From IMG/VR virus record IMGVR_UViG_3300037331_000047, positions 1 to 35,940 of that record: a stretch of DNA of 35,940 nucleotides; one strand, written 5' to 3'. This document shows, piece after piece, positions 4,232 through 31,120 of this stretch. A model generated the notes under the pieces. That model saw nothing but the letters and a program-made list of their open reading frames with translations. It had not been told where the DNA came from and searched no databases. Made by a program: the position numbers and the translations under genes. Numbering within the stretch: position 1 is the stretch's first letter; every line of letters begins with the position of its first letter. Origin of the DNA: a virus.

Positions 4232-5761
4232 TCAGATGTCTTCTAGCGCCTGCTGGATAATGAGCGTGGTCTGCTCCTCTGAGAGCTTCGCAGGCTCATC
4301 CCTGACGGCCTGAGCTTGGTTGCCAAAGATGCGGCTGAGCACCCCCCCAGAAGACTGCCGCTCGATGGTGATGCGCTCGAACTCACGGTTCTCATCCATC
4401 TTTTTCATGGTGGAAACGAGCTTGAAGAGGCGGTCTACTTCTTGGCTCAAGTTGGGGTCGCTGTAGCCTCCTCCAACATCCTCCGCGAACTTCATGAAGG
4501 CCACCCGTTGCCCCTGCATCTCAACAACGGACAGGAGAAGCGCCTTCAACTGGTCGGCAGTTTGTACCTGTACCGGAAGGTTAAACGCGCAGACCGAACC
4601 GGGCTTGAAAGCGGGGCAGTTGGCCGCGACAAAGCAGGTGTCGCACTGCCGCATGCTGGTCGCCTGAGAGCGCATCATGGGCAAGTCTTTGAGCGTCTGT
4701 GTGCCGTCTTCTGCGACGTCGATAACCTTCTGTATCTCGATACCTACCCCAGGCAGAATTGTCATCTCCTGGGGGTCACGAGGGGCCGGAGGAGTGGCAC
4801 TAACATTCCGCACTCCGACATCACTGTTAGTAGATGCCCCCATGCCCATTTCCATCAAACCGGTGTATAGGGTGTCATCACTGTTATCAGCTACTTTCTT
4901 GCCCTCGCCCGGTGTGCGACCCCCGGGGATGGAAGTAAGTCTCTTTTTACGCTCTTCTTTGTCCATGGCAATCTCCAGTTGACGGTATGACCACACAGCA
5001 ACCTTGGTGGCTTCCAGGGTGTCGTCATCGAGGAACTTCTCAAAGTCCAAGCCAGCGCCCGTGACTAAGCTCTTGTACCGAGGCCGAGCCTGGGCCTTCA
5101 TCCGCTTGGGATAGCGGACAAGCTTGGAGCCATCCCAGACAATAGTCTCGCCTCGGCGCATCGGGGAGAGCCACGAGAGCGTGCTGGCGGTGCTAAACGG
5201 AATCTGCCGGAGGTTGTCGGGCTTAGCCACGGCGAGAGCGTGGAAGGCCACAGGGTACTGCGTCTGCAACTGGCGCGTGATGCCCGCAAGGTTTGTGGCG
5301 GATTCGACCGTGGCCCCGGGGATAGCGATGTTCGCGTATGACTCCGCCCACCTCCGTAAGACGGGGATACCGTAGCTTTCGTGCCACACCACCCACATCT
5401 TCGGGTCGTTCTCAAAAGCTGCGCGGTTAGCCGCAATGGCCGGAAGCCCCAGCTTCTGACTGTCAAACTCGACCCAGCCCTCGATGCGGTCGTAGTTGTA
5501 GGCAATGAAGTCTTCGTACTCACCGGCGTACTCATCACGCTCTCGGACAGTGAGTTCAGCCTTGTCGGCTTGAACAGAGCCGCTGTCTATCCAGACCTTC
5601 ATCTCGGGTAGGAAGTGCTCCCCCACAAGATACGGCTTCGTCTTGGGCAGGCCGCGCTTGCGCAACCCCCAGAAGTTGAGCATGACGGAGTCGACTCCTG
5701 CGCGCTCCAACAGGGTGCGGTTAGAGGGAACCTCTACCCCGCCAAAAACAAGAGCGGTCAT
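4232..5761 (-). CDS. TGT/DpdA-like protein fused to a four-cysteine domain
   Basis: A 509-residue protein with two parts. Residues about 20-250 resemble the tRNA-guanine transglycosylase/DpdA barrel: a strand ending IDSGS (Asp59), an EDFI helix, a WVEFD strand, the WVVWHESYGIPVL segment, AESYANIAIPG, then HALAV and a Ser-Thr-Ser-Trp-like turn. TGT enzymes exchange guanine for a 7-deazaguanine in tRNA; DpdA does so in DNA. Residues 373-391 form a C-x2-C-x5-C-x8-C cluster, followed by a helical tail. This cluster is not the C-x-C-x2-C zinc site of true TGTs. The start overlaps the upstream stop as ATGA. Barrel identity is an inference from motif order; no preQ0 synthesis gene is visible. Confidence 0.55.
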   Translation of the reverse strand: MTALVFGGVEVPSNRTLLERAGVDSVMLNFWGLRKRGLPKTKPYLVGEHFLPEMKVWIDSGSVQADKAELTVRERDEYAGEYEDFIAYNYDRIEGWVEFDSQKLGLPAIAANRAAFENDPKMWVVWHESYGIPVLRRWAESYANIAIPGATVESATNLAGITRQLQTQYPVAFHALAVAKPDNLRQIPFSTASTLSWLSPMRRGETIVWDGSKLVRYPKRMKAQARPRYKSLVTGAGLDFEKFLDDDTLEATKVAVWSYRQLEIAMDKEERKKRLTSIPGGRTPGEGKKVADNSDDTLYTGLMEMGMGASTNSDVGVRNVSATPPAPRDPQEMTILPGVGIEIQKVIDVAEDGTQTLKDLPMMRSQATSMRQCDTCFVAANCPAFKPGSVCAFNLPVQVQTADQLKALLLSVVEMQGQRVAFMKFAEDVGGGYSDPNLSQEVDRLFKLVSTMKKMDENREFERITIERQSSGGVLSRIFGNQAQAVRDEPAKLSEEQTTLIIQQALEDI

Positions 5762-18849: not shown

Positions 18850-19283
18850 TTCTTACCCTTCTCCGTTTTCAGAACAGCCGTAGGTGTGCCAAGAACCAGT
18901 AGGCCGAGGCCCAGTAACTGCGAGATAGATGCCGCGGTAGACCGCAGGATGACCTCCGAGAGGGATGCCTGAGAGGCCACGGCAAACTCCATCACCCGCT
19001 CGCGTTCTTCGGGGGACAGTGACTCCAGGTGCTCCGCGACCATCGCACCAGAGGACGCGAGAGAGTGCGCGGCAAGCAGGGGAATAAGAGTCTGTACGTT
19101 TTTTAGCCGCTCTTCGCTCGCTTGCTCTTCGTGGTCCAGAACGTCGGGCGACATGGGGACCTTATCCGGAGAAAGGTGCCGGTGAGCGTTAGGCAGTCCT
19201 GTGTCCGAAAGGAACGTATGCAGGTGCTCTACTAACGGAATAGACAAAACAATAGCGGAGGGCTTACGGCGGAAAAACTTCAT
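18846..19283 (-). CDS. Hypothetical protein, possible membrane-associated
   Basis: A 145-residue helical protein. It opens MKFFRRKPSAIVLSI, and a hydrophobic C-terminal segment (ISQLLGLGLLVLGTPTAVL) could lie in the membrane. The middle is acidic helices (SPEERERVMEFAVASQASL). It shares ATGA with the polymerase stop and GTGA with the next gene. No family recognised. Confidence 0.6.
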   Translation of the reverse strand: MKFFRRKPSAIVLSIPLVEHLHTFLSDTGLPNAHRHLSPDKVPMSPDVLDHEEQASEERLKNVQTLIPLLAAHSLASSGAMVAEHLESLSPEERERVMEFAVASQASLSEVILRSTAASISQLLGLGLLVLGTPTAVLKTEKGKK

Positions 19284-21337
19284 TTGGCCTCTCCCCAGCG
19301 GTCAACAATCTTGACGTCAGCAATAAGCGGAACTGTCATTTCCGGCAAGTGAATGCCTTCCATAGATAGCCTAATGGCTTCTGCTGTTTCTTCCGCACGG
19401 CTCGCCGGAGTAGAAGTTACTAGCTCATCGTGAACCGTCAAAAGGACGTTTATATCGGGCTCATCGAGAAAGCAGGAGTGGGCGCGGACAATAGCGAGCT
19501 TCATGATGTCCGCCGCGGAGCCCTGAATAACGGTATTGAAAGCCTGCCTCTCGGCGCGAGAACGACGAGAACGCTGTTCTTTATCCTTCTCCGTCATATC
19601 GCGGTACGGAATTGTCACGGCGGGCAGAAGGAGGTCAGGGATATACCGCCGTCGACCAAAGACTGTCTCGACATACGGGGTTCCTGAGCGCTGACGTGCG
19701 AGCCTCACAATGCGGGCTTTGTACTGGCTGATGCGGGGGAACTGCGCCTCAAAGTCCGTCATGAGCTGGCGTGCGTCGGTCATACTGCACCCGATGCTCG
19801 TGGCGACCTTATCCGGACCAATCCCGTACGACAGCGCCAGAACCAGGGTCTTACCACCGGAGCGGTCGATGTTGAGGCGCTCGGCGATGGCGGTGTAAAT
19901 GTCACGCCCTGCGCGGTAGTTCTCAATAAGGTCAGGGTCATTCGAAAAGGCAGCAATAACCCGCGGCTCAATCTGCGAGTAGTCCGCCACGACAAGCTGG
20001 TTACCGGGCTCTGCGATAAACAGGTTACGCACCATCTTCCCGTAGTCCGTTCGGGGATTAGGGATATTCTGCATATTGGGCTTTGACGACGATATGCGGC
20101 CAGTTTCCGCTCCGTGCGCCTTGAAGTCGGTGTGGACACGTCCGTCAATCAGCAGGCTCTCTCGCGGTACGAGCCTGGTCTTGCCGTTGGTAGTGCGCTT
20201 GACGAGGCCACCGGTGTACGGCATGACGTACGTTGTCATGAGCTTGTTGAGGTCCTGGTACGCCAGTAGCGCGTCTATCAACGCGTCTTTGCCGCGGTAG
20301 AACTCCAGGGCATCCGCAGAGGTCGACAGCATCGTGTGGTCTACGTCATTACCGGCCTTGACCGCCTCGCGCCCACGCTCCGTAAGCGCCGCCTGGAACT
20401 TGCGGTCGGGGTTAATGCGCGGCTTCTTGCCGTCTGCCTGCGGGGCAAACAACAGCCGTTGCTTCTCTTGAATTGAATTGATGGGAAAGGCTTTACCCGC
20501 TAGGCGGTAGACGTTGCCCTCGGCCTCTTCAATGTCCGCAAGAAGCTGAACCCGTAAGGTCTCTAGCTTGTCGACGTCCAGAACGGCCCCCCGCAGCTCC
20601 ATATCGCACAGGGCAACCAGGACATCCATCTCCAGCCGCCAGACGCGGCTCAAGGAGCCCTCCAGCTTGACGGCGAGCTTCTTGTACAACTGCCACGTCA
20701 ACTCTGAGTCAATGGCTGAGTACAGCGCTACGTCTTCAAACGAGTGCAGGGCAATGTTGACTCCGATGCCCTTCTCCATCTCGACTCCGAGATTCCTCTT
20801 CACCGAGTCCTTTAGCTTCAGAGAGTTCTTGTGGAGGTTGTTGATGATGAACCCCGCCATCATGGTGTCAAAGTGCGGGCCTGCCGGAACTGCGCCCCGG
20901 AAGTACTTCGCAACGGACTCCAGGTCAAACTTTGCGTTGTGCGCAATCTTGAGCGCAGGGCCGAACATGACCGGTCGAAGGGCCGCGAACACCGCCCCTG
21001 GGGTGAGTTGCTGTGGTGCCGGACCAAACACCGGCTCGCGCTTGCTGTCGGCTTGGGAGTAGTGCTTATCCGTTACCTCTTTGCCCTCGGCAAGCCTCCG
21101 GCGACCCTCCGCCAAGATAGGACGGTTCCAGCTTAGGAAAGAGCCGTGTGGGTGTCCCATGGGGATAACGTCGGTGCGGTTATCGGTCGCAAAGCTAATC
21201 CAACAGACGTCGTTTATCTTGCGGATAAGGCGGTTCTCGCCAATGGTCTCAACGTCGAAGGCGAAGGCCTCGACGGAGCGGTAGTGCGCGACGAACTCAG
21301 CTAGCTGAGACTCGGTGGTAATGAGATTGAACTCCAT
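19280..21337 (-). CDS. polA: Family A DNA polymerase with 3'-5' exonuclease
   Basis: A 685-residue polymerase without a 5'-3' exonuclease domain. The exonuclease has FDVET (Asp28, Glu30), IAHNAKFDLE (Asn134, Asp138) and YSAID (Tyr206, Asp210). Polymerase motif A is VVADYSQIEPRV (Asp452), motif B is RSGGK...YG (Arg492, Lys496, Tyr504), motif C is VHDE (His636-Glu638). Position 500, equivalent to Phe762 of E. coli Pol I, is Leu. An insert of about 45 residues (60-115) separates Exo I and Exo II. It replicates phage DNA with the DnaB and DnaG products. AGAGGACATC precedes the ATG. Confidence 0.93.
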   Translation of the reverse strand: MEFNLITTESQLAEFVAHYRSVEAFAFDVETIGENRLIRKINDVCWISFATDNRTDVIPMGHPHGSFLSWNRPILAEGRRRLAEGKEVTDKHYSQADSKREPVFGPAPQQLTPGAVFAALRPVMFGPALKIAHNAKFDLESVAKYFRGAVPAGPHFDTMMAGFIINNLHKNSLKLKDSVKRNLGVEMEKGIGVNIALHSFEDVALYSAIDSELTWQLYKKLAVKLEGSLSRVWRLEMDVLVALCDMELRGAVLDVDKLETLRVQLLADIEEAEGNVYRLAGKAFPINSIQEKQRLLFAPQADGKKPRINPDRKFQAALTERGREAVKAGNDVDHTMLSTSADALEFYRGKDALIDALLAYQDLNKLMTTYVMPYTGGLVKRTTNGKTRLVPRESLLIDGRVHTDFKAHGAETGRISSSKPNMQNIPNPRTDYGKMVRNLFIAEPGNQLVVADYSQIEPRVIAAFSNDPDLIENYRAGRDIYTAIAERLNIDRSGGKTLVLALSYGIGPDKVATSIGCSMTDARQLMTDFEAQFPRISQYKARIVRLARQRSGTPYVETVFGRRRYIPDLLLPAVTIPYRDMTEKDKEQRSRRSRAERQAFNTVIQGSAADIMKLAIVRAHSCFLDEPDINVLLTVHDELVTSTPASRAEETAEAIRLSMEGIHLPEMTVPLIADVKIVDRWGEAK

Positions 21338-23116: not shown

Positions 23117-24682
23117 TTAGTTGATAGCTTGCTTCAGGAATGCTAGCAGGCTCCGGCTATCTAGTTCCATCCCGCCGACGTCGTCGACGCCGGAACCATC
23201 CAGCAGGGCACCGGCTACTGCAAGCTTCTGGTGGACCAGGTCATGCTGGCGAATATCCAACGAGCGCTCCACTAGGAAGTCCTGGACAATGACCATCTTC
23301 CACTCCGAGGAGACCCTCTGAATGCGGCCATTTCGCTGGAGAAGAGCACCCGCTGACCAGGGGAGGTCGACGTTGACCAGCAGATTGGCCTGGGGGAGGT
23401 TGACGCCGTATCCGCCAGCATCTGAGCTGACGAACACCCGCACCTCGGGGTCCTCCTGGAACAGCTTCTTGTTGGCGTCTTTCTGCGCGAGGGATAGCCT
23501 CCCGGAGTAGGGAACCGCCTTCGCCCCGAAGCGCGCGACCAAAGTCTCGACAGCATCGACCCAGGAGACAAACACCACGACCTTGTAACTCGGGTCAATC
23601 TCAAGAAACTCCGTGACGTAGGCCTCTACGGCATCGAGCTTGGGAGTGCCGTAATTGAACGCCAGCAGTCCCTCGTCAACCAACTGCGCGGCGTACGCGC
23701 TGCCGTCATCGCGGGTCGGGTCGTGGTGATGCTGCGCGGAAAGGGTGATGAGCTCTGGAGACACGCAGAGTTGCCGGAGGCAGGTGATTCCGGACATCAC
23801 CGCACCGAGCACAGCGTTTCGGGGGTCTTGATAGCCGAGGCCCGCTCCGCCATACAGCGTCGACAGGCTAAAGACGCCGCCGGTCTGCGCAAGCTTCTCT
23901 AGATGGGGCATAAGGTCTCCCACCAGCCTGCTATGGAGCTTTCGGCTCCGAGCATCGAGAGGCACCACGATGGGGTCGCGGTACATCGTGGTGGGCAGAT
24001 ACGGGGCGACCGCGGGGTCGGCTTGGGTACGGCGGACCATGACGGAGTCAAGCCGAGTGTGCAGGCCCGCTAGGTTTCGGTACCGCTCGACAGCCCCAAA
24101 GGTGTTGCGCTCGATGTAGGCCTCGTCAAAGGACTTAAAGTCGCCTAGAACTGTGCGGTCGACAAACTCCATAATGGAGAACAGCTCCTCCGCGCGGCCA
24201 TTCTCGATGGGGGTCCCCGTGAGCGCTAAGCGGTATGCGACCTTACGGGCCAGGGCCTTGACGCGGCGGGTGCGCTGAGCTCTGAAGTTCTTCAGGGCAG
24301 TTACTTCGTCGCAGACGATGGCTGAAAACTCCATCTTGCCGAGCAACTTCCAGTCCTTGGTCACCTGCTCGTAGTTGACGATGACATACGAGAAGGTGCG
24401 CGCGAGGGAATACTGCTCAGCGCGCTGTTTCGGGGTTCCGGAAATGACGATGGATTTACGGTCGGTGAACTTTGCGATTTCTCCCGCCCACTGCGCCTTC
24501 AGCGTGGACAGCGCGACGATGAGCACCGGCTTCGTTACCGCTCCCTGCTCCCGCAGAGTTTCGATGGCCGCAAGAGACGTCGGAGTCTTACCAAGACCCA
24601 TCTCGTACGCTACTAAGGCGCGGCCCGACAGGAGGACTTGTAGGTCCTGCTGTTGGTAAGGGTGAAGGGTTCCCGTAAACAT
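23117..24682 (-). CDS. SNF2-type helicase
   Basis: A 521-residue superfamily 2 helicase. Q-motif-like HPYQQQDL precedes GLGKT (29-33). Motif II is CDEVTAL, motif III is ALTGTPIENG, motif V lies near VFVSSDAGGYGVNLP, and motif VI is QRNGRIQRVSS. SNF2 proteins translocate on duplex DNA and remodel bound proteins. Phage members may clear or restart forks. ATG 24682 is chosen, though ATG 24715 also exists. Either start overlaps the end of the primase by 95-128 bases. Confidence 0.85.
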   Translation of the reverse strand: MFTGTLHPYQQQDLQVLLSGRALVAYEMGLGKTPTSLAAIETLREQGAVTKPVLIVALSTLKAQWAGEIAKFTDRKSIVISGTPKQRAEQYSLARTFSYVIVNYEQVTKDWKLLGKMEFSAIVCDEVTALKNFRAQRTRRVKALARKVAYRLALTGTPIENGRAEELFSIMEFVDRTVLGDFKSFDEAYIERNTFGAVERYRNLAGLHTRLDSVMVRRTQADPAVAPYLPTTMYRDPIVVPLDARSRKLHSRLVGDLMPHLEKLAQTGGVFSLSTLYGGAGLGYQDPRNAVLGAVMSGITCLRQLCVSPELITLSAQHHHDPTRDDGSAYAAQLVDEGLLAFNYGTPKLDAVEAYVTEFLEIDPSYKVVVFVSWVDAVETLVARFGAKAVPYSGRLSLAQKDANKKLFQEDPEVRVFVSSDAGGYGVNLPQANLLVNVDLPWSAGALLQRNGRIQRVSSEWKMVIVQDFLVERSLDIRQHDLVHQKLAVAGALLDGSGVDDVGGMELDSRSLLAFLKQAIN

Positions 24683-25688
24683 ATGCCCGCTCGCCGTAGA
24701 GGTAGGAGATTGCATTCTCCATTCCCCAAGTGATTTCCTCGTCGGTCATCTCTCCGGGGTCTTTCTTTCCAGTACTACCGTAGTTGAAGAATCGAGCATT
24801 AACGCCATATTTGTGGCACAGTTCCATAACCTCCTGCGAGGCCTTTCGACCGGCGGTATCGAGGTTGGGATTGTCAAAAGCAAAAACGACGTTATCCACC
24901 GAGCGAATGAGCTTGAACTGCTCATCGGACATAGAGGAGCCGCAGATAGCTACTGCGGATATGTTTCCCACATCATAAAAACGGATGCAGTCCAACGGAG
25001 ACTCCACAACCACTACCGAGTCTCCAGTGAGCTGCGGCAAGCCAAAGAGCGTCCGTGACTTCTTCATCCCCGGCGGTCGGTTGAAAAAGTGCTTGTGGAA
25101 CTGGCCCTTCTCCTGCCATCCCAGCAGGTCGGGCCTAGAAGAGGCTCCAGAGTTATCCACCGAGCTGTCGAACTGCCAAATTGGAAGTACCCAGAGCTGC
25201 TTCTTCTCGTCCCAGAGGACTCCAAAGTGCGCAATGGCCTCTCCACTAACTCCTCTAGCCGTAAGTGCCTCCGTAGGAGGTGGCCCGAAGAGCGCCAGTC
25301 GGGCGCGGGACATCGGAACAACCGAATCAGCCGACTCCATGACACGCTTTGGGATGGACGCCAGCAGCGTCGCCAGCCGGTCGGGGTCAATCTCGGCGAT
25401 GTTGTCCAGCCACGCGCGGGCGGCGACAAAGTCATACGAGACCTCATCGCCCCAAAGTACGGTGACGAAGCCCTGGACATCGGCCACCAGCGCAAGGAGC
25501 CCCCCGGAATAGTGGCAGGAGAAGCAGATGTGCTGGCCCGTGGAGAGGTTGACCCACCAGGAGGGGCTGTTGTCTTCGCGACCAACAATGCGGCGATGCG
25601 CAGGACACAGCGCGTTGGCCTCATTTCCCCGCACGCTGTAGTCGAGTCCGAGGGCCTGCAGGACCTCCTCGACATTTACGGTGCTCAC
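24588..25688 (-). CDS. dnaG: DnaG-type primase
   Basis: A 366-residue primase. CPAH (Cys28, His31) and CFSC (Cys55, Cys58) form the CHC2 zinc finger. The TOPRIM core shows VVVVESPLDCIRF (Glu) and FAFDNPNLD (Asp pair). It should make RNA primers on the DnaB-unwound strand. GTG 25688 overlaps the DnaB stop (GTGA), so helicase and primase are translationally coupled. The last 40 residues are Pro/Ser/Gly-rich and read through the start of the helicase gene in another register. Confidence 0.88.
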   Translation of the reverse strand: MSTVNVEEVLQALGLDYSVRGNEANALCPAHRRIVGREDNSPSWWVNLSTGQHICFSCHYSGGLLALVADVQGFVTVLWGDEVSYDFVAARAWLDNIAEIDPDRLATLLASIPKRVMESADSVVPMSRARLALFGPPPTEALTARGVSGEAIAHFGVLWDEKKQLWVLPIWQFDSSVDNSGASSRPDLLGWQEKGQFHKHFFNRPPGMKKSRTLFGLPQLTGDSVVVVESPLDCIRFYDVGNISAVAICGSSMSDEQFKLIRSVDNVVFAFDNPNLDTAGRKASQEVMELCHKYGVNARFFNYGSTGKKDPGEMTDEEITWGMENAISYLYGERAYVYGNPSPLPTAGPTSPPVGPRLSSVRDGSW

Positions 25689-26953
25689 GGCGTTTGGGAC
25701 CAGACCGCGGAGTCGTTGCAGAACTGGCACGAGAGCTGCTGTGACTCATCATGAAAACAGCCACGGTCCCAGTTCCACGTAATAGAGGTCTCTGAGGGGG
25801 GACAGTTACGCGACTGGACAATCTTCAGCAGGCGGATGCCCTCATCCCCTTCGACTGGCTCCAGGCCAAGAATGACGTCGGAGTCTTGGAAGAACGATGA
25901 GGAGTAGCCGATGGAGTCCGCAGAGACCTTGTTCCCCTTCATTTTCCACAGCAGAGTCTGGGTCGTGATGACGATGGGGATATTGAGCTTCTGCGCCATC
26001 CGCTTGAGTCCGCGGGTGATGTTCGTCAGCGCCTGAGGGGTATTGGCCTCTCCGGTGACCTCGTCCAACATCAGGTAAACACCGTCGATGAACACGATGT
26101 CGGGCTTCTTCTGCTCGACACTGGCCAGGATAGAGCTGATGGTGAGACCGCCCACTGCATCGGTCAAGTGGAAGGGCTGCTCGCCGTTCATGGCGATGAG
26201 CTCATTCTGGTAGCGGAGCTTCTCGTCGTCATGCAGTGCCCCGCGACGAAGTCGGGCGTGCGAGATATGCGCACGCATGGCGTCGGCCCGCTGTTGCTGT
26301 TCATGGTTGTTCATCTCGAAGGACTGAAAGATGGGTACCTTGCCGGATTTGTGGATGTTCAACGCCACCTGCAGGGCAATCATCGACTTTCCCGTCTTGG
26401 GCGGGGCGATGATAGTCACAAGCTGTCCCGCCTGCAGGCCCGCGGTCGCCTCATCAATCTTCTCAAAACCGGTGGCGATGCCGAGCAGAGCACCGGAGGA
26501 GTTAACGAGGTCTTCGTACGCCTCGAAGCGCTTCTCAGCGTCTTTCGTGAGGTCGATGTGGGTGGTCCCCTGGACCCCCTGCTCGTTGACAATCGTGAGG
26601 GTCTTCTGCATCTCCAGCAGAGCAGCCTCGTGGTCGTTTGTCTGCAGACTCTCGACGACCTGCGCTGTTCCCGAGAGGGTCAGCTTCTTGCGGCGAAAGG
26701 CCACCATCTGGTCAACGAGATAGTCGATGGTGTCTTCGACATTGACGGCTTTGAAGTTGGGGTAGTTATCCCGAACGGTGGTGTACGTCGGCACCTCTCG
26801 GTATTGCGCGTAGTGCTCCCGCACAAACGTCCAGACCCGGCGGAGGTCATCATCGACAAACCAATCGTCTTTGATTCCTGTTTCCAACAGAGGAATGATA
26901 TTGCGGTCAAGAATTGCCTTGCTAAGAAGGCGGTATTCATTATCGTGCGCCAT
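25685..26953 (-). CDS. dnaB: DnaB-family replicative helicase
   Basis: A 422-residue helicase. An N-terminal helical domain is followed by Walker A APPKTGKS (183-190), the H1a motif IFQSFEMN, Walker B DIVFIDGV, and the H4/arginine-finger region GYSSSFFQDSDVILGL. A C-terminal CQFC pair may bind zinc, which is unusual for DnaB. It should form a hexameric ring loaded by the DnaC-like gene. ATG 26953 has GGGATAAATAC upstream. Confidence 0.88.
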   Translation of the reverse strand: MAHDNEYRLLSKAILDRNIIPLLETGIKDDWFVDDDLRRVWTFVREHYAQYREVPTYTTVRDNYPNFKAVNVEDTIDYLVDQMVAFRRKKLTLSGTAQVVESLQTNDHEAALLEMQKTLTIVNEQGVQGTTHIDLTKDAEKRFEAYEDLVNSSGALLGIATGFEKIDEATAGLQAGQLVTIIAPPKTGKSMIALQVALNIHKSGKVPIFQSFEMNNHEQQQRADAMRAHISHARLRRGALHDDEKLRYQNELIAMNGEQPFHLTDAVGGLTISSILASVEQKKPDIVFIDGVYLMLDEVTGEANTPQALTNITRGLKRMAQKLNIPIVITTQTLLWKMKGNKVSADSIGYSSSFFQDSDVILGLEPVEGDEGIRLLKIVQSRNCPPSETSITWNWDRGCFHDESQQLSCQFCNDSAVWSQTP

Positions 26954-27009
26954 GTATTTATCCCGAAATAGTAGAAGGCGAAAGGTAAATGCGTGCCGTG
27001 CAGAACTCG

Positions 27010-27426
27010 CTAAAGGTTGAGAGAAAAGTACCAAGAGCCGTAGCGAGCGGCTCTCTGGTGCATGTCGACCACACCCTGCAGGTTAGGTCGGTACGGCAGG
27101 TCGTTGATGAAGTCTTCAACGCTGGGGTAGACCTCGGCGTGGTTGAACGGGTTGGCCCCCCGGCCATCCAGTCGAGCCATGACGCGGTCAAGGTCCGACT
27201 GTTCCCAGACCTCGTCCGCAAAGGCGACAAGCTCCACACTGAGTCCATGCTTGCTGGAGAAGTTCCAGAGGTAGGACAAGACGCGGTTGTCGTAGCTCAC
27301 CTCTGAGCGCTTGGTAACCGAGCGTCGAAGGAGCTTCTTATCTTCTTCGACTTCCGAGGAACCAATGACGTCAATAACAACAATGAGGCGGCGGGGTGTT
27401 TCGTTAGAGATGTCTCCGCCGCGCAT
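27010..27426 (-). CDS. Degenerate HAD-like protein
   Basis: A 138-residue protein. RRLIVVIDVIGSSEVEED at residues 12-29 resembles HAD motif I but lacks the second Asp. A later segment (SVEDFINDLPYRPNLQGVVD) recalls a family of actinophage HAD-like proteins. It probably keeps a Rossmann-like fold with altered or no catalysis. It overlaps the SWIM gene stop (TAATG) and precedes dnaB. Confidence 0.5.
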   Translation of the reverse strand: MRGGDISNETPRRLIVVIDVIGSSEVEEDKKLLRRSVTKRSEVSYDNRVLSYLWNFSSKHGLSVELVAFADEVWEQSDLDRVMARLDGRGANPFNHAEVYPSVEDFINDLPYRPNLQGVVDMHQRAARYGSWYFSLNL

Positions 27427-27734
27427 TAGTCGTCCAGCACAACGACGCGTGCGGAGTGCGCAAGCATGTGCCGGAAACGGGGAGCATCATCCATCAGGTT
27501 TTGGACGTCCTCGTCGGGGACGGTATCGGGAATCTGGATGGAGTACGTCCCACCCTGCTTGACCTGGCTCAGGACGTACGCCATGTGGCGGCACCGGCCA
27601 AACCCGCGGCGGGTGGGGCAGGTACACCGAAGCTTGGTGTAGTCAAGGCGGTCGAGTGAAACTTCACACACGCCTTCAGGCTCTAAAAAGAACTGGACGG
27701 TTAGCCAGTTGATGCTTTTTGTCATAGAGCTCAT
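27426..27734 (-). CDS. SWIM-type zinc-finger protein
   Basis: A 102-residue protein with a SWIM motif: CTC (37-39), then CRH (48-50), i.e. C-x-C-x8-C-x-H. SWIM fingers bind DNA or protein partners and occur with recombination factors and helicases. The gene shares ATGA with the loader gene. It may help assemble the replication complex, by context. Confidence 0.7.
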   Translation of the reverse strand: MSSMTKSINWLTVQFFLEPEGVCEVSLDRLDYTKLRCTCPTRRGFGRCRHMAYVLSQVKQGGTYSIQIPDTVPDEDVQNLMDDAPRFRHMLAHSARVVVLDD

Positions 27735-28474
27735 TTCCCCTCACCTCCAGGGTACTTGCGAAGGTCTACGCCGTGGACCTCTACTGGAACAAAAGCCTCG
27801 TTGAAGAAGCTCTCCATAACGGTTCCGTATTTAGCGGCCCACAGATTAGCGGGGACATTAGTAGTAATGATGGTCGGCAGTGCGCGGTCATACCGAGTAC
27901 GCAGAATAGCGTCGAATGAGTGGTCATCGTATTCCGAGCCGTATTGCTTATTGATGTCATCCAGAACGAGAACTCGAACATTGAGTCGGTCGTTTTTGGC
28001 GATGCCGAGGTAGCCGTCGAGCTCATCAGTCATTTGGGCGTACTCCGCACCGGAGGCCGAGAAGGAGGCTTTGCGCTGGCGGAGGTAATCAATCATGGTC
28101 AGGTAGTACACCGGGCGACAGCGGAGGCTCATGTCCGAGTCGCTGTAGCCCAGTACCGCTTTGCGCTCAGAGGCCTCCACGCGGCGTAGGACCTCCATAG
28201 CGGCCACAACCGCTGTGGTGGTCTTGCCGAGTCCGGGAGGGCCGGAGAACAGCAACCCACGGCCTGTGGTGGCACTGCCGGGGTTGCGGATGACCTGTCC
28301 GGAGACAACATCCTGGACCCAGTTCTCGACCAGTCCCGACCAACCGGCGTTGGCAGTCAGGCTGGTGGGGATGCGGCCCCAGAGGCGCATCGGGATGTTG
28401 CTGTTGTTTTGAAGCCAGAACCGAAGGGTGGAGTCGGTTGGCGGTACACGGAGAGTCGAAATAGCTGTGTTCAC
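27731..28474 (-). CDS. dnaC: DnaC-like helicase loader
   Basis: A 247-residue AAA+ ATPase. P-loop GPPGLGKT (78-85) precedes Walker B LVLDD and the sensor IITTN, and an N-terminal helical region could bind DnaB. It would load the hexameric helicase at the origin. GTG overlaps the upstream stop (GTGA). Its position between the initiator and the helicase fits this role. Confidence 0.85.
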   Translation of the reverse strand: MNTAISTLRVPPTDSTLRFWLQNNSNIPMRLWGRIPTSLTANAGWSGLVENWVQDVVSGQVIRNPGSATTGRGLLFSGPPGLGKTTTAVVAAMEVLRRVEASERKAVLGYSDSDMSLRCRPVYYLTMIDYLRQRKASFSASGAEYAQMTDELDGYLGIAKNDRLNVRVLVLDDINKQYGSEYDDHSFDAILRTRYDRALPTIITTNVPANLWAAKYGTVMESFFNEAFVPVEVHGVDLRKYPGGEGK

Positions 28475-29526
28475 TTCGTCCTTTCGAGGAGTCGAGATTC
28501 GTATTCCGCGAGGTGCTTACGCCCGCCAGGAGTATCGGAGAAGGTGGTTCCGTCCGAGGCCACCGGAGGTTGCTGTGCGAGCAACTGGGCGGCTGGGGAG
28601 GTGTGGCTGGGTGCAGAAAATATGACCGTAGCAGGTGCTGACGTCGATTCATTCCACGACATTCCGGCGTGGGCATAGCCCGCCACGATGTTGGCCCGGT
28701 AGAAGTGCAAAAACTTGCCCAGAAGCTGGGCGGGGGTCAGCGATTCGATGCCGGTGACGTTGCGGGGCTCTTCGAACCAAAGCTCCACAATCGCCTTCTC
28801 GACTTCGTGCGGAACCGAGTACTGACGGCGATACTGCGCCAAAATCTTGGCCAGGGCCATGACGTTAAGCATCTTCGGCACCAACGGGTTGGCCTCCGAC
28901 AGCCGACGGGAGATGTCGGTGGCGGTGTGGCGAGTGTTGGGCTGAGACTTCCTGTTTCGCTTTTGGTCCTTGGCATCAAGCTCTTCGGGAAGGAGACCTG
29001 CCGCGCCGCCGCCGTCGAAGTCATCCTCGTAGCGATTTACCATCGGTGTGCTCTTTCCCTTCACCTTGCGCGCATCGCGTGCAAGGGTAAGACGAACGTA
29101 GTGAGTCTTACGAATAGCTAACTGGTTCCTGTTAGTCATTGACTGTATGGGCAGGTCACTAAGTGTGGACCCCACATCTGTGTGGGATGGTGCGGCTTCT
29201 ACTTCGGCTGACCACCCCACGGGTTTGTGGGGTATGTGGGGTGGTGAATCCACGGGGTTGTGGGGTGGTGGTGGTAGCAGAAGTCGATACACGTTGAAGT
29301 AGAACCTGCCGAAGTTGCGCTTGGTTCTGGTGATGAGAATAAGGTTCTTCTCTTCCAAGCCGCGGAAGGCACGCCGAAGAGATTCGGTCGAATAGCCGGT
29401 CATCCCGGCAAGCTCTTCTGTAGAGGCGGTGACAATGTCTTTTTCCGCGACTTGGTATAACGCAACCAGGGTCTTGAACTCTGCTCCCGTGAGGTCAGAC
29501 GAGAATATCTCGGGGGGCAAGAGCAT
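28471..29526 (-). CDS. Winged-helix replication initiator
   Basis: A 351-residue protein. Residues 1-85 form a winged helix: FSSDLTGAEFKTLVALYQVA, then ASTEELAGMTGYSTESLRRA and FGRFYFNVYRLL. This is the DNA-binding part of phage initiators. Residues 90-115 are Pro/His-rich and encoded by repeats. The C-terminal half is helical and could bind the loader. ATG 29526 has GGAG five bases upstream. It stands first in the replication order, as in lambda O, where the origin lies inside the gene. Confidence 0.75.
   Translation of the reverse strand: MLLPPEIFSSDLTGAEFKTLVALYQVAEKDIVTASTEELAGMTGYSTESLRRAFRGLEEKNLILITRTKRNFGRFYFNVYRLLLPPPPHNPVDSPPHIPHKPVGWSAEVEAAPSHTDVGSTLSDLPIQSMTNRNQLAIRKTHYVRLTLARDARKVKGKSTPMVNRYEDDFDGGGAAGLLPEELDAKDQKRNRKSQPNTRHTATDISRRLSEANPLVPKMLNVMALAKILAQYRRQYSVPHEVEKAIVELWFEEPRNVTGIESLTPAQLLGKFLHFYRANIVAGYAHAGMSWNESTSAPATVIFSAPSHTSPAAQLLAQQPPVASDGTTFSDTPGGRKHLAEYESRLLERTK
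29181..29270. repeat. Iteron-like repeats, candidate replication origin
   Basis: TGTGGGGT occurs at 29226-29233, 29235-29242 and 29259-29266, with a near copy TGTGGGAT at 29181-29188. ACCACCCCAC (29211-29220) pairs with GTGGGGTGGT (29236-29245). Lambda O and many plasmids carry such repeats inside or next to the initiator gene. The repeats also encode a Pro/His-rich linker, so they could reflect protein composition alone. Confidence 0.45.
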
Positions 29527-29566: not shown

Positions 29567-29872
29567 TCAGCGGCGGCGGTGAGAGGAGTTTGGAACAACA
29601 ATCGTCGGTCGGTTAAGCCAGTTTTGGGCCATTAAAGCGATAGCCGCTCCGGCACCCGCCAAAAGGATAATGTCTCCGGCGGAGTCCTCTAAGTACCAAG
29701 CCCAAGATGTAGTGATGGCCACCGTGGAGACGCGCTGTATGTAGGGGGCCAGGGAGTCTGGGTCAATGTCCTGTCGGAGCAGCGACACTAAACGAGATAC
29801 TCCCCGGCCCACGAGCTCCGCGAGAATTAGAGCAAAAAGTCCCAGCATAATTGCAGAAAAGAAAAGGTCCAT
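29567..29872 (-). CDS. Probable holin
   Basis: A 101-residue membrane protein: MDLFFSAIMLGLFALILAEL is the first span, IILLAGAGAAIALMAQNWL another, and a weak middle hydrophobic part (VSTVAITTSWAW) may be a third. The C-terminus ends SSHRRR, as in many holins. It lies next to the amidase gene. Holin is inferred from size, spans and context. It would time release of the endolysin. Confidence 0.7.
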   Translation of the reverse strand: MDLFFSAIMLGLFALILAELVGRGVSRLVSLLRQDIDPDSLAPYIQRVSTVAITTSWAWYLEDSAGDIILLAGAGAAIALMAQNWLNRPTIVVPNSSHRRR

Positions 29873-29893: not shown

Positions 29894-31120
29894 TTACACG
29901 CTATTGACAAAGCGCTGGAAGGCACTCCAGGTTCCGTTTCCGGGGATACCGTCGATGGGTCCTGAATAGCCCCAGCTTGCTTTTAGCCAACGCTGGAATG
30001 CCTTATTCGTACCGGTTCCAGGGTCACCGTCGATGGGTCCGGTGTACTTCCAGTTGCGCGCTAAGAAACGCTGCATCGCGCTCCAGCTTCCGTGGCCAGG
30101 AATGCCGTCAATGCCGCCGACGTAGCCCCAGTCTCGGGCAAGCCAGGTCTGCGCACGTCGCCACGTTGTGGGGCCTGCGTGACCGTCAATGCCGGTACGG
30201 GGAAGAACCTGCGCGGGGGCATTCCGGACACCGCGAGCAGCACGCGCCAGTGCGACGCTTGTCCGCGGGCCGAAGAGTCCATCTAGTGCTCCTAAGTAGC
30301 CGTGCGAAGCCTGCAGCCAGCGCTGAGCGGCGGTCCAGGACAGTCGACCAGGAAGCCCGTCGATGGCCCCCTGGTATCCCCAGTGCGTTCGCAAGAAGCT
30401 CTGCAGTGCGGTCCAGGTCAAGCTTCCTGGGATTCCGTCGATGATGCCGGTGTAGCCCCACTCGCGGGCAAGCCAGGTCTGTAGCCCTCGCCAGGCGTTC
30501 TTGCCTGCAAAGCCCCCGAAGTCAACGCCCGAGGCCACGCTGGTGGTGGCCGCTGGTGCTGGCACGGGTGCTGGTGCCGGTGCTGCACCGGGCGTTGGTG
30601 TCGCACCTGCGGGCTCTCCCAAAAGTTCTGCCGCCCGCTGGGTGATGGCTTCTACCGGGTGCGGTCCTGGGCAAAAGGTTGCGTAGGAGGCGCGGTGTTG
30701 TAGCCAGAGGTCGCGGTGGCCGATGACTGTGCGGATGGAATACCGCGCCCGCAGGTCGTTGAGTAGCCGCGCTGCTGCGTCAGTGGCGGCGGCAGAGATG
30801 GGCCAGTCTGGGGCTCCGCTCTCATTTTCAATTTCGACGGTGATGCTCCGCCGGTCCCACGCGGCACCCTTGCCGCCATCGCGGGTCGAGCCTGAGGTCC
30901 ACGCTCGAAGGTCCTCGTCGACGACGAGGGTGATGCGCCCCTCGTTGCTGATGGTGTAGTTCGAGGAGACCTGCCGAGTGCGGTTGACCATCATGTCGAT
31001 TACTGCGTCGTCGTTTGTTCCAGCCTGGTGGTGAATGAGGTAGGTATCAATGGTTGTGCCGTTGCGGTCTGAGGACTGCGGGGACAGTCGAATCTGGTTA
31101 GTGAGGGCCGAGTGGGTCAT
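29894..31120 (-). CDS. Endolysin: amidase with peptidoglycan-binding repeats
   Basis: A 408-residue lysin. The N-terminal amidase_2/PGRP domain shows LIHHQAG (zinc His30 or 31), VIGHRDLW and a Cys-Pro-Gly-Pro-His end, so it should cut the MurNAc-L-Ala bond. After an Ala/Pro linker, about seven 26-residue units follow the pattern W..QxWLxxxWGYxGxIDGxPG. One (unit four) is degenerate. They would bind peptidoglycan. GAAGGAGAAATC precedes the ATG. There is no signal peptide, so release depends on the holin. Confidence 0.92.
   Translation of the reverse strand: MTHSALTNQIRLSPQSSDRNGTTIDTYLIHHQAGTNDDAVIDMMVNRTRQVSSNYTISNEGRITLVVDEDLRAWTSGSTRDGGKGAAWDRRSITVEIENESGAPDWPISAAATDAAARLLNDLRARYSIRTVIGHRDLWLQHRASYATFCPGPHPVEAITQRAAELLGEPAGATPTPGAAPAPAPVPAPAATTSVASGVDFGGFAGKNAWRGLQTWLAREWGYTGIIDGIPGSLTWTALQSFLRTHWGYQGAIDGLPGRLSWTAAQRWLQASHGYLGALDGLFGPRTSVALARAARGVRNAPAQVLPRTGIDGHAGPTTWRRAQTWLARDWGYVGGIDGIPGHGSWSAMQRFLARNWKYTGPIDGDPGTGTNKAFQRWLKASWGYSGPIDGIPGNGTWSAFQRFVNSV

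Follow-up and report, generated by a model that had tools for sequence, protein, structure and literature searches.

Putative initiator-binding dyads and a paired DNA hairpin within a phage replication initiator gene: a candidate in-gene origin of the lambda O type

Does the gene for a phage replication initiator also carry the origin at which its product would act? The question is raised by a virus record of 35,940 bases (hereafter, the window: the whole stretch of DNA that was analysed), in which a sequence-only reading noticed short repeats inside a winged-helix initiator gene and likened them to the origin within lambda O. An origin inside the initiator gene is textbook knowledge for lambda. 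We believe that the repeats are putative initiator-binding sites (iterons) of the phage replication origin, which would be embedded in the coding sequence for the initiator's own linker, a part of the protein predicted to be disordered; judging from sequence comparisons, we put the probability of this reading at about 0.86.

The genes of the minus-strand block (Table 1) follow in the order initiator, DnaC-like loader, two small genes, DnaB, primase, SNF2-type helicase, a weakly SSB-like gene, family A polymerase and RecA. The loader stands directly after the initiator and the DnaB-like helicase after the two small genes; the succession of initiator, loader and DnaB described in the sequence-only reading is thus borne out, with the E-values given in Table 1. 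The shift in GC skew that had been proposed as a check is absent: there is no switch at 29.2 kb, and the skew is positive on both sides.

The initiator is similar to PHROG 678 and 270 (O-like, replication initiation; E 1.1e-05 and 3.9e-07, partial matches), and its start was set by homology. The AlphaFold2 model of the winged helix has block pLDDT values of 91-95 at residues 31-90, then 67 and 85. The Pfam family HTH_Crp_2 matches at E 1.7e-04, which is under the family cut-off; a PDB sequence search with the initiator profile gave weak matches, mostly to CRP-type helix-turn-helix proteins (the best, at E 5e-4, is a repressor), and Foldseek with the model gave winged-helix matches, none of them at E<=0.001. 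The linker is predicted to be disordered (pLDDT below 50 at residues 130-204), and in the predicted model the repeats fall within it, between the winged helix and the C-terminal helical domain.

Table 1. Features of the initiator locus and of the replication block in the window
Feature	Positions	Strand	Remarks
Family A DNA polymerase	19280..21337	-	
DnaG-like primase	24588..25730	-	Toprim; CHC2 zinc finger slightly under cut-off; similar sequence at 77 of 80 loci
DnaB-like helicase	25685..27034	-	Pfam DnaB_C, E 3.9e-28; PHROG, E 1.4e-61
DnaC-like helicase loader	27731..28474	-	PHROG, E 3.6e-20; similar sequence at 75 of 80 DnaB loci
Initiator gene	28471..29526	-	351 aa counted from ATG; 376 aa from upstream TTG at 29601
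C-terminal helical domain	28477..28938	-	Residues 222-375 of the 376-aa reading; AlphaFold2; conserved among relatives
ATG matching the internal in-frame start of relatives	29041..29043	-	Shine-Dalgarno matches of >=4 bases absent from the stretch examined
Hairpin 2, CCTTGCACGCGATGCGCGCAAGG	29064..29086	-	9 of 10 pairs, loop GAT
Hairpin 1, GTAAGACTCACTACGTTCGTCTTAC	29087..29111	-	9 of 11 pairs, loop TAC; lies where 49 relatives have their strictly paired hairpin
Putative opening tract	29112..29170	-	From the last dyad to hairpin 1; a weak tract in the window, with 53% A+T (computed for 29111-29170) vs 43% for the gene
Dyad (iteron) 3, CCCACACAGATGTGGG	29171..29186	-	Perfect 6-4-6
Dyad (iteron) 2, CCCACAAACCCGTGGG	29216..29231	-	1 mismatch
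Extra lone half-site, TGTGGGGT	29235..29242	+	Outside any dyad
Dyad (iteron) 1, CCCACAACCCCGTGGA	29249..29264	-	2 mismatches
Winged-helix DNA-binding domain	29281..29511	-	Residues 31-107 of the 376-aa reading

Two other features of the window can be mentioned here. An Amidase_2 endolysin gene with peptidoglycan-binding repeats (Pfam) lies at 29894-31120 on the minus strand and contains five 66-nt DNA copies with 62-71% identity to the first copy. The lysis cassette may be inserted between the initiator and the gene of a 700-aa ORF beyond it, since the endolysin and a 101-aa ORF (29567-29872) have no match in 80 DnaB loci and the 700-aa ORF is matched in 56. A queuine tRNA-ribosyltransferase-like gene (4232-5761, minus strand; PHROG 887, E 3e-55) might serve a 7-deazaguanine change of the phage DNA.

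Relatives were collected in two scans. With the DnaB of the window as the query, the best 80 of 315 relatives were kept (at these viral loci DnaB is 66-73% identical to that of the window), and 57 of these best 80 loci encode a homologue of the initiator. The second scan used an alignment query; the best 80 of its 237 relatives were kept, and its loci overlap those of the DnaB scan. The resulting 157 sources, with the window included and a piece of the window (L001) excluded, gave 143 with a match, 134 roughly full-length genes and 93 distinct ones; clustering at 95% left 80 non-redundant initiator genes. Shuffled controls permute codons among synonymous positions inside each gene. Named relatives are lacking in what was searched: the window initiator as the query found no relatives in IMG/VR and no match among 50,697 named phage records, two other initiators of the group found none among the same records, and a distant DNA search with a 3.9-kb stretch gave no match. 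Among the matches listed in the literature search, no paper on this phage group was found. One relative outside the 80 genes, L157 (4314-4334), lies on a contig of a Microbacteriaceae metagenome assembly and has the hairpin in another reading frame; it hints at Microbacteriaceae as the host group, although the contig could be mis-binned.

The sequence-only reading had counted four 8-mer repeats and a 10-bp inverted repeat inside the initiator gene, and both were confirmed. Exact copies of TGTGGGGT start at 29226, 29235 and 29259 (plus strand) and at 29169 (minus strand), copies with one mismatch at 29181 (plus) and 29214 (minus); the inverted repeat ACCACCCCAC/GTGGGGTGGT pairs 29211-29220 with either 29236-29245 or 29260-29269. 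Two further exact copies of the 8-mer are found elsewhere in the window (12067 and 13523). Copies with at most one mismatch number 40 in the whole window vs 31.2 expected by chance, and 40 was reached in 6 of 100 shuffles; considering that this count is barely above chance, the 8-mer by itself is weak evidence. It was rejected as the repeat unit, being a single arm of the 16-bp dyad CCCACA-n4-TGTGGG. Thus, the presence of repeats stands, the unit is amended to a 6-4-6 dyad, and the element extends, with two hairpins, to about 29041, past the stretch marked at the outset.

Dyads with no or one mismatch occur in the window only at 29171 and 29216. Two mismatches are found at 29249, as well as at 27838 and 34899, and the window total at three or fewer mismatches (19 vs 20.2 expected) is at chance level; nothing is remarkable, therefore, beyond the two best copies and the clustering. 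The dyad-family score, i.e., the score for a family of dyads with a common half-site, was matched in the window by 9 of 2000 codon shuffles that kept the protein and the codon usage. By cruder measures on the window alone, one perfect dyad appeared in 15 of 200 shuffles and the longest stem in 31 of 200.

The relatives speak more plainly. The linker regions of the 80 genes contain 64 perfect 6-4-6 dyads vs 7.3 after codon shuffling (maximum 14 in 200 shuffles); in the C-terminal control region the numbers are 4 and 4 (one shuffle per gene). A perfect dyad is present in 45 genes, only 22 of which individually pass the 5% level. A dyad-family score of at least 5 is reached by 59 of the 80 genes vs 8.9 codon-shuffled (maximum 15 in 100), and 23 of the 80 have no confident dyad family. 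The dyads are mostly 24-54 bp apart, with spacings that are multiples of 3 in most genes.

Conservation at synonymous sites was compared in pairs of related genes: 65 genes gave 113 pairs in which the C-terminal codons differ by 5-45% and each part offers no fewer than 20 codons to compare, and the values given here are those of 28 disjoint pairs. Among degenerate codons for the same residue, the share that differs is 13.0% for the linker, 36.6% for the N-terminal part and 32.6% for the C-terminal part, and the linker value is below the C-terminal one in 27 of the 28 pairs. Synonymous drift of the repeats in related phages had been named as an observation that would speak against the origin; since synonymous codons of the linker change about 2.5 times less, that objection does not hold.

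The half-site varies between phages together with the recognition helix of the winged-helix domain. CCCACA goes with S.E[ST].RR[ASG][FL]R.LE helices (the window and nine relatives), GTTTCA with SRTT[LIV]WR[DE] in 10 of 12 genes, GTAACA with SRMQISR (5 genes), GTGTCA with SRSSVHRAV (3 genes), and CGGTAA/TGGTAA with SDKT[IV]RSAL (4 genes). The exception, L033, has an SRTTLWRD helix together with a half-site called as GTACTA, perhaps from a false dyad. In the 57 of 80 genes with a score of at least 5, at least two dyads and at least two G/C in the half-site, the distance between half-sites correlates with that between recognition helices (Mantel 0.606), with 0.387 for the preceding protein part and 0.341 for the C-terminal part. 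For the helix given the C-terminal distance, the partial Mantel value of 0.546 was reached by none of 5000 permutations; for the C-terminal part given the helix, the value is 0.141, reached by 13 of 5000. Linkage of helix and linker in one gene could mimic part of this covariation; it does not readily account for the helix outperforming the protein part just before it.

The dyads are followed by a tract and by hairpins. In the 50 genes with hairpin 1, the two 30-base steps before its loop have mean A+T contents of 65% and 73% (56% and 63% when shuffled). A TCAACA block lies 3' of the dyads (41 occurrences vs 4.6 expected) in 40 of these 50 genes. Between the last dyad and hairpin 1, relatives are also enriched in ACT/TAG-type k-mers and a TCAACAGCTG-like block; TCAACAGCTG itself is absent from the tract of the window. 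The enrichment might reflect a pattern for binding to single strands, akin to the DnaA-trio.

The hairpin-1 class was defined by a TTC or TAC loop between C and G and at least 7 of 10 pairs, and takes in 50 of the 80 genes. Of these, 40 have all 10 pairs, 9 have 9 and the window, which is counted among the 50, has 8. In the 49 genes without the window, all 343 cells of pairs 2-8 are Watson-Crick vs 95-138 of 343 in slid controls, although part of this strictness and of the excess over the controls is due to the choice of rows by pairing and loop; with the window added, 348 of 350 cells are Watson-Crick. Over the same pairs, the tree of the C-terminal part requires at least 46 pair changes, and neither G-T nor A-C is found among the 343 cells. 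All three codon frames are represented at the loop (2 for the 49 genes, 0 for the window, 1 for L157), which means that the hairpin DNA is kept while the peptide changes (mostly of the NTSY/NTTY, THYV and ILRI kinds). The 80 loci, 806 kb in all, contain 58 loop-3 hairpins with at least 8 pairs inside the initiator genes and 9 outside them, and the C-terminal control region has no excess of stems (4.46 vs 4.41 codon-shuffled). Thirty of the 80 genes are outside the class, and in 4 of the 80 no loop-3 or loop-4 hairpin of 6 pairs was found. Binding of the initiator at hairpin 1 was considered and is disfavoured: the same stem occurs together with CCCACA half-sites in L087 and with GTTTCA in L057.

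A second hairpin with at least 5 perfect pairs is present in 41 of the 50 genes vs 9.6 shuffled (maximum 18 in 60). With wobble-type cells allowed, 47 genes give 298 Watson-Crick, 9 G-T and 6 A-C cells. Where hairpin 2 is a perfect loop-3 hairpin, it has a GNN triloop on the coding strand in 14 of 17 cases. At its loop, the coding strand of hairpin 1 has either C(TTC)G or C(TAC)G, equivalent to C(GAA)G and C(GTA)G, respectively, on the non-coding strand. Seven genes outside the main class (L069 and L066 with a GTA loop; L077, L136, L141, L146 and L150 with a GAA loop) have a single hairpin, roughly where hairpin 2 would be, whose GNA-type loop is on the coding strand.

Past the hairpins, an in-frame start codon preceded by a Shine-Dalgarno match of at least 6 bases is found in 32 of the 80 genes vs 8.3 shuffled (maximum 15 in 100) and in none of 571 control windows; matches of at least 4 bases at this internal start occur in 74 of the 80 vs 40.8. 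In the window, two pairs of hairpin 1 and one of hairpin 2 are mismatched. Hairpin 1 alone was reached by 129 of 2000 codon shuffles of the window, and both hairpins by 1 of 2000; folded as DNA, the non-coding strand gives -15.3 kcal/mol (z -4.6) and the coding strand -11.8 (z -2.8). The copy in the window is a weak and divergent one, with two mismatches in one of its three dyads, imperfect hairpins, a tract of 53% A+T and no clear internal Shine-Dalgarno sequence.

Four other explanations were weighed. The Pro/His-rich linker peptide may be what is selected, with the DNA repeats following from codon usage. Indeed, the repeats encode PxHxxVG-type units in several relatives, the spacings of the dyads are mostly multiples of 3, and the window-wide count of the 8-mer is near chance. 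We find this hardly credible, considering that a protein-preserving codon shuffle removes most dyads, that synonymous sites of the linker are conserved, that other phages carry other dyads and other peptides at the same place, that the hairpin core is read in three frames and that the linker is predicted to be disordered. Composition, which the sequence-only reading put forward as the rival, is not sufficient across the family in view of the codon shuffling and the synonymous conservation. A second possibility is that the dyads are autoregulatory operators through which the initiator represses its own operon, and not an origin; covariation of dyads with the winged-helix recognition helix is equally expected in this case. 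Still, the position of the dyads is mid-gene, the A/T tract and hairpins that come after them in relatives give an order like that of the lambda origin, and the loader and DnaB genes are downstream of the initiator gene, which makes operators very unlikely.

The other two explanations concern the hairpins. Their action could be in mRNA, in internal-start translation or transcript stability, and not in DNA; this is compatible with the origin reading, and the position of the hairpins 5' of start codons with Shine-Dalgarno matches is in its favour. An RNA stem, however, would be expected to tolerate G-U, and hairpin 1 has no G-T or A-C cell; the 9 G-T and 6 A-C cells of hairpin 2 show no clear bias to the mRNA strand, and in the window it is the non-coding strand that folds better. 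Since pairing is kept while the letters change and G-T is absent, a DNA structure is favoured, and we consider action in RNA rather unlikely. The strict pairing might also be a mutational footprint: template switching during replication makes and mends perfect inverted repeats, by a mechanism described in PMC8794818. Such a footprint seems most improbable as the cause, since the hairpins occur at one place and are rare elsewhere in the same loci (58 vs 9), and stems are not in excess in the C-terminal control region.

If the repeats are origin iterons, the following order of events can be proposed. Winged-helix dimers of the initiator would bind the dyads, one helix per half-site, as their symmetry and the covariation of half-site and helix suggest, and the bound array would open the adjacent tract as in lambda. 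Once one or both strands are exposed, hairpins 1 and 2 would fold there and mark the entry of the phage primase or of the loader-helicase complex, one of which we presume to be the reader. By analogy with lambda O and from the gene order, the C-terminal domain would recruit the loader and DnaB; in many relatives this domain may also be made alone, from the internal start just after the hairpins. A primase site is our preferred role for the hairpin, a tentative choice held at less than even odds, with helicase placement next.

It is tempting to go further and to propose a strand-coded hairpin module, which we regard as doubtful when all its parts are taken jointly. The non-coding strand would carry the stable GNA-type triloop of hairpin 1, and the coding strand, in most cases where hairpin 2 is a perfect loop-3 hairpin, a GNN triloop of hairpin 2. 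On opening of the tract, the hairpins opposite to these would be melted by the single-strand-binding protein, and each strand would keep one that is folded. The phage's own primase (or an RNA polymerase) would read each of the two, and the two forks would thereby be primed in defined directions. With the helicase-recruiting domain also made alone, one gene would serve as initiator, origin and second replication factor, and the lambda palindrome would be the same element.

Among known systems, RepA_N plasmids offer a likeness in that their origin DNA encodes a linker. Foldseek with the initiator gave 4pql, 4pt7 and 5kbj at E 0.02-0.07 (a weak match), which we take to belong to RepA_N-type plasmid initiators; no RepA_N domain is among the Pfam matches of the initiator at E<=1. 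The N-terminal domain of pSK41 Rep is described as binding Rep boxes located centrally in the rep gene, and the part of the protein encoded by the origin DNA as a linker, which can be deleted (PMC5703833). Those, however, are plasmid initiators, and the structural match is weak. For extrachromosomal mycobacterial prophages, the authors suggest that, as in lambda, the origin is inside repA or immediately upstream of it, and they report no repeats in the region they examined (PMC7157519); this RepA-like case is likened to ours by description and differs in the dyads.

The promoters of the N4 virion RNA polymerase are short DNA stems with a 3-base loop and a sheared G:A pair, in which the non-conserved stem bases are free if paired; the hairpin extrudes from supercoiled DNA, and that of one strand survives the single-strand-binding protein (PMC4496689). 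Hairpin 1 is similar in its short stem and 3-base loop, with C(GAA)G or C(GTA)G on the non-coding strand, and differs in having one place per locus, inside the initiator gene. No N4-type virion RNA polymerase was found among the 23 window proteins (a subset of the ORFs) scanned against Pfam. TrfA of plasmid RK2 has two forms, the shorter of which comes from an internal in-frame start; the putative short form here would, in contrast, lack the entire DNA-binding domain.

The closest comparison is with lambda. The origin lies in the middle of the initiator gene in lambda and in Stx lambdoid phages, and 18-19 bp inverted-repeat iterons bound by O dimers adjoin an A/T-rich tract (PMC7466680, PMC3349717, PMC5043065, PMC6022878). 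The lambda record has four annotated iterons, the A/T tract and a 12+4+12 palindrome in this order inside O. The dyads and palindrome of this phage group, with the putative tract between them (on average A/T-rich in the 50 genes with hairpin 1, weak in the window), are likewise inside the initiator gene, and since the order is the same, the locus is best read as an in-gene origin of the lambda O type; the likeness to lambda O that the sequence-only reading proposed is supported as to anatomy and amended as to the repeat unit and its extent. The best reading, from the sequences compared, is therefore such an origin in a group with no close named relatives (three initiators tried), together with a DNA hairpin module that perhaps serves priming or helicase loading.

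The locus differs from the lambda type in several respects. The initiator is similar to O-like families at the PHROG level only (E 1.1e-05), the distances between dyads exceed the 20-24 bp of the lambda iterons, the half-site changes between phages, relatives have a second hairpin and an internal start, and the helicase and primase, along with a DnaC-like loader, are encoded by the phage. The group comprises dozens of natural variants, and its many half-site types with their recognition helices are a ready key to origin specificity. The origin hairpin here keeps its pairing while its letters change. These variants and the pairing-conserved hairpin make the role of the palindrome at the lambda A/T tract, and the choice of the strand primed first, directly testable.
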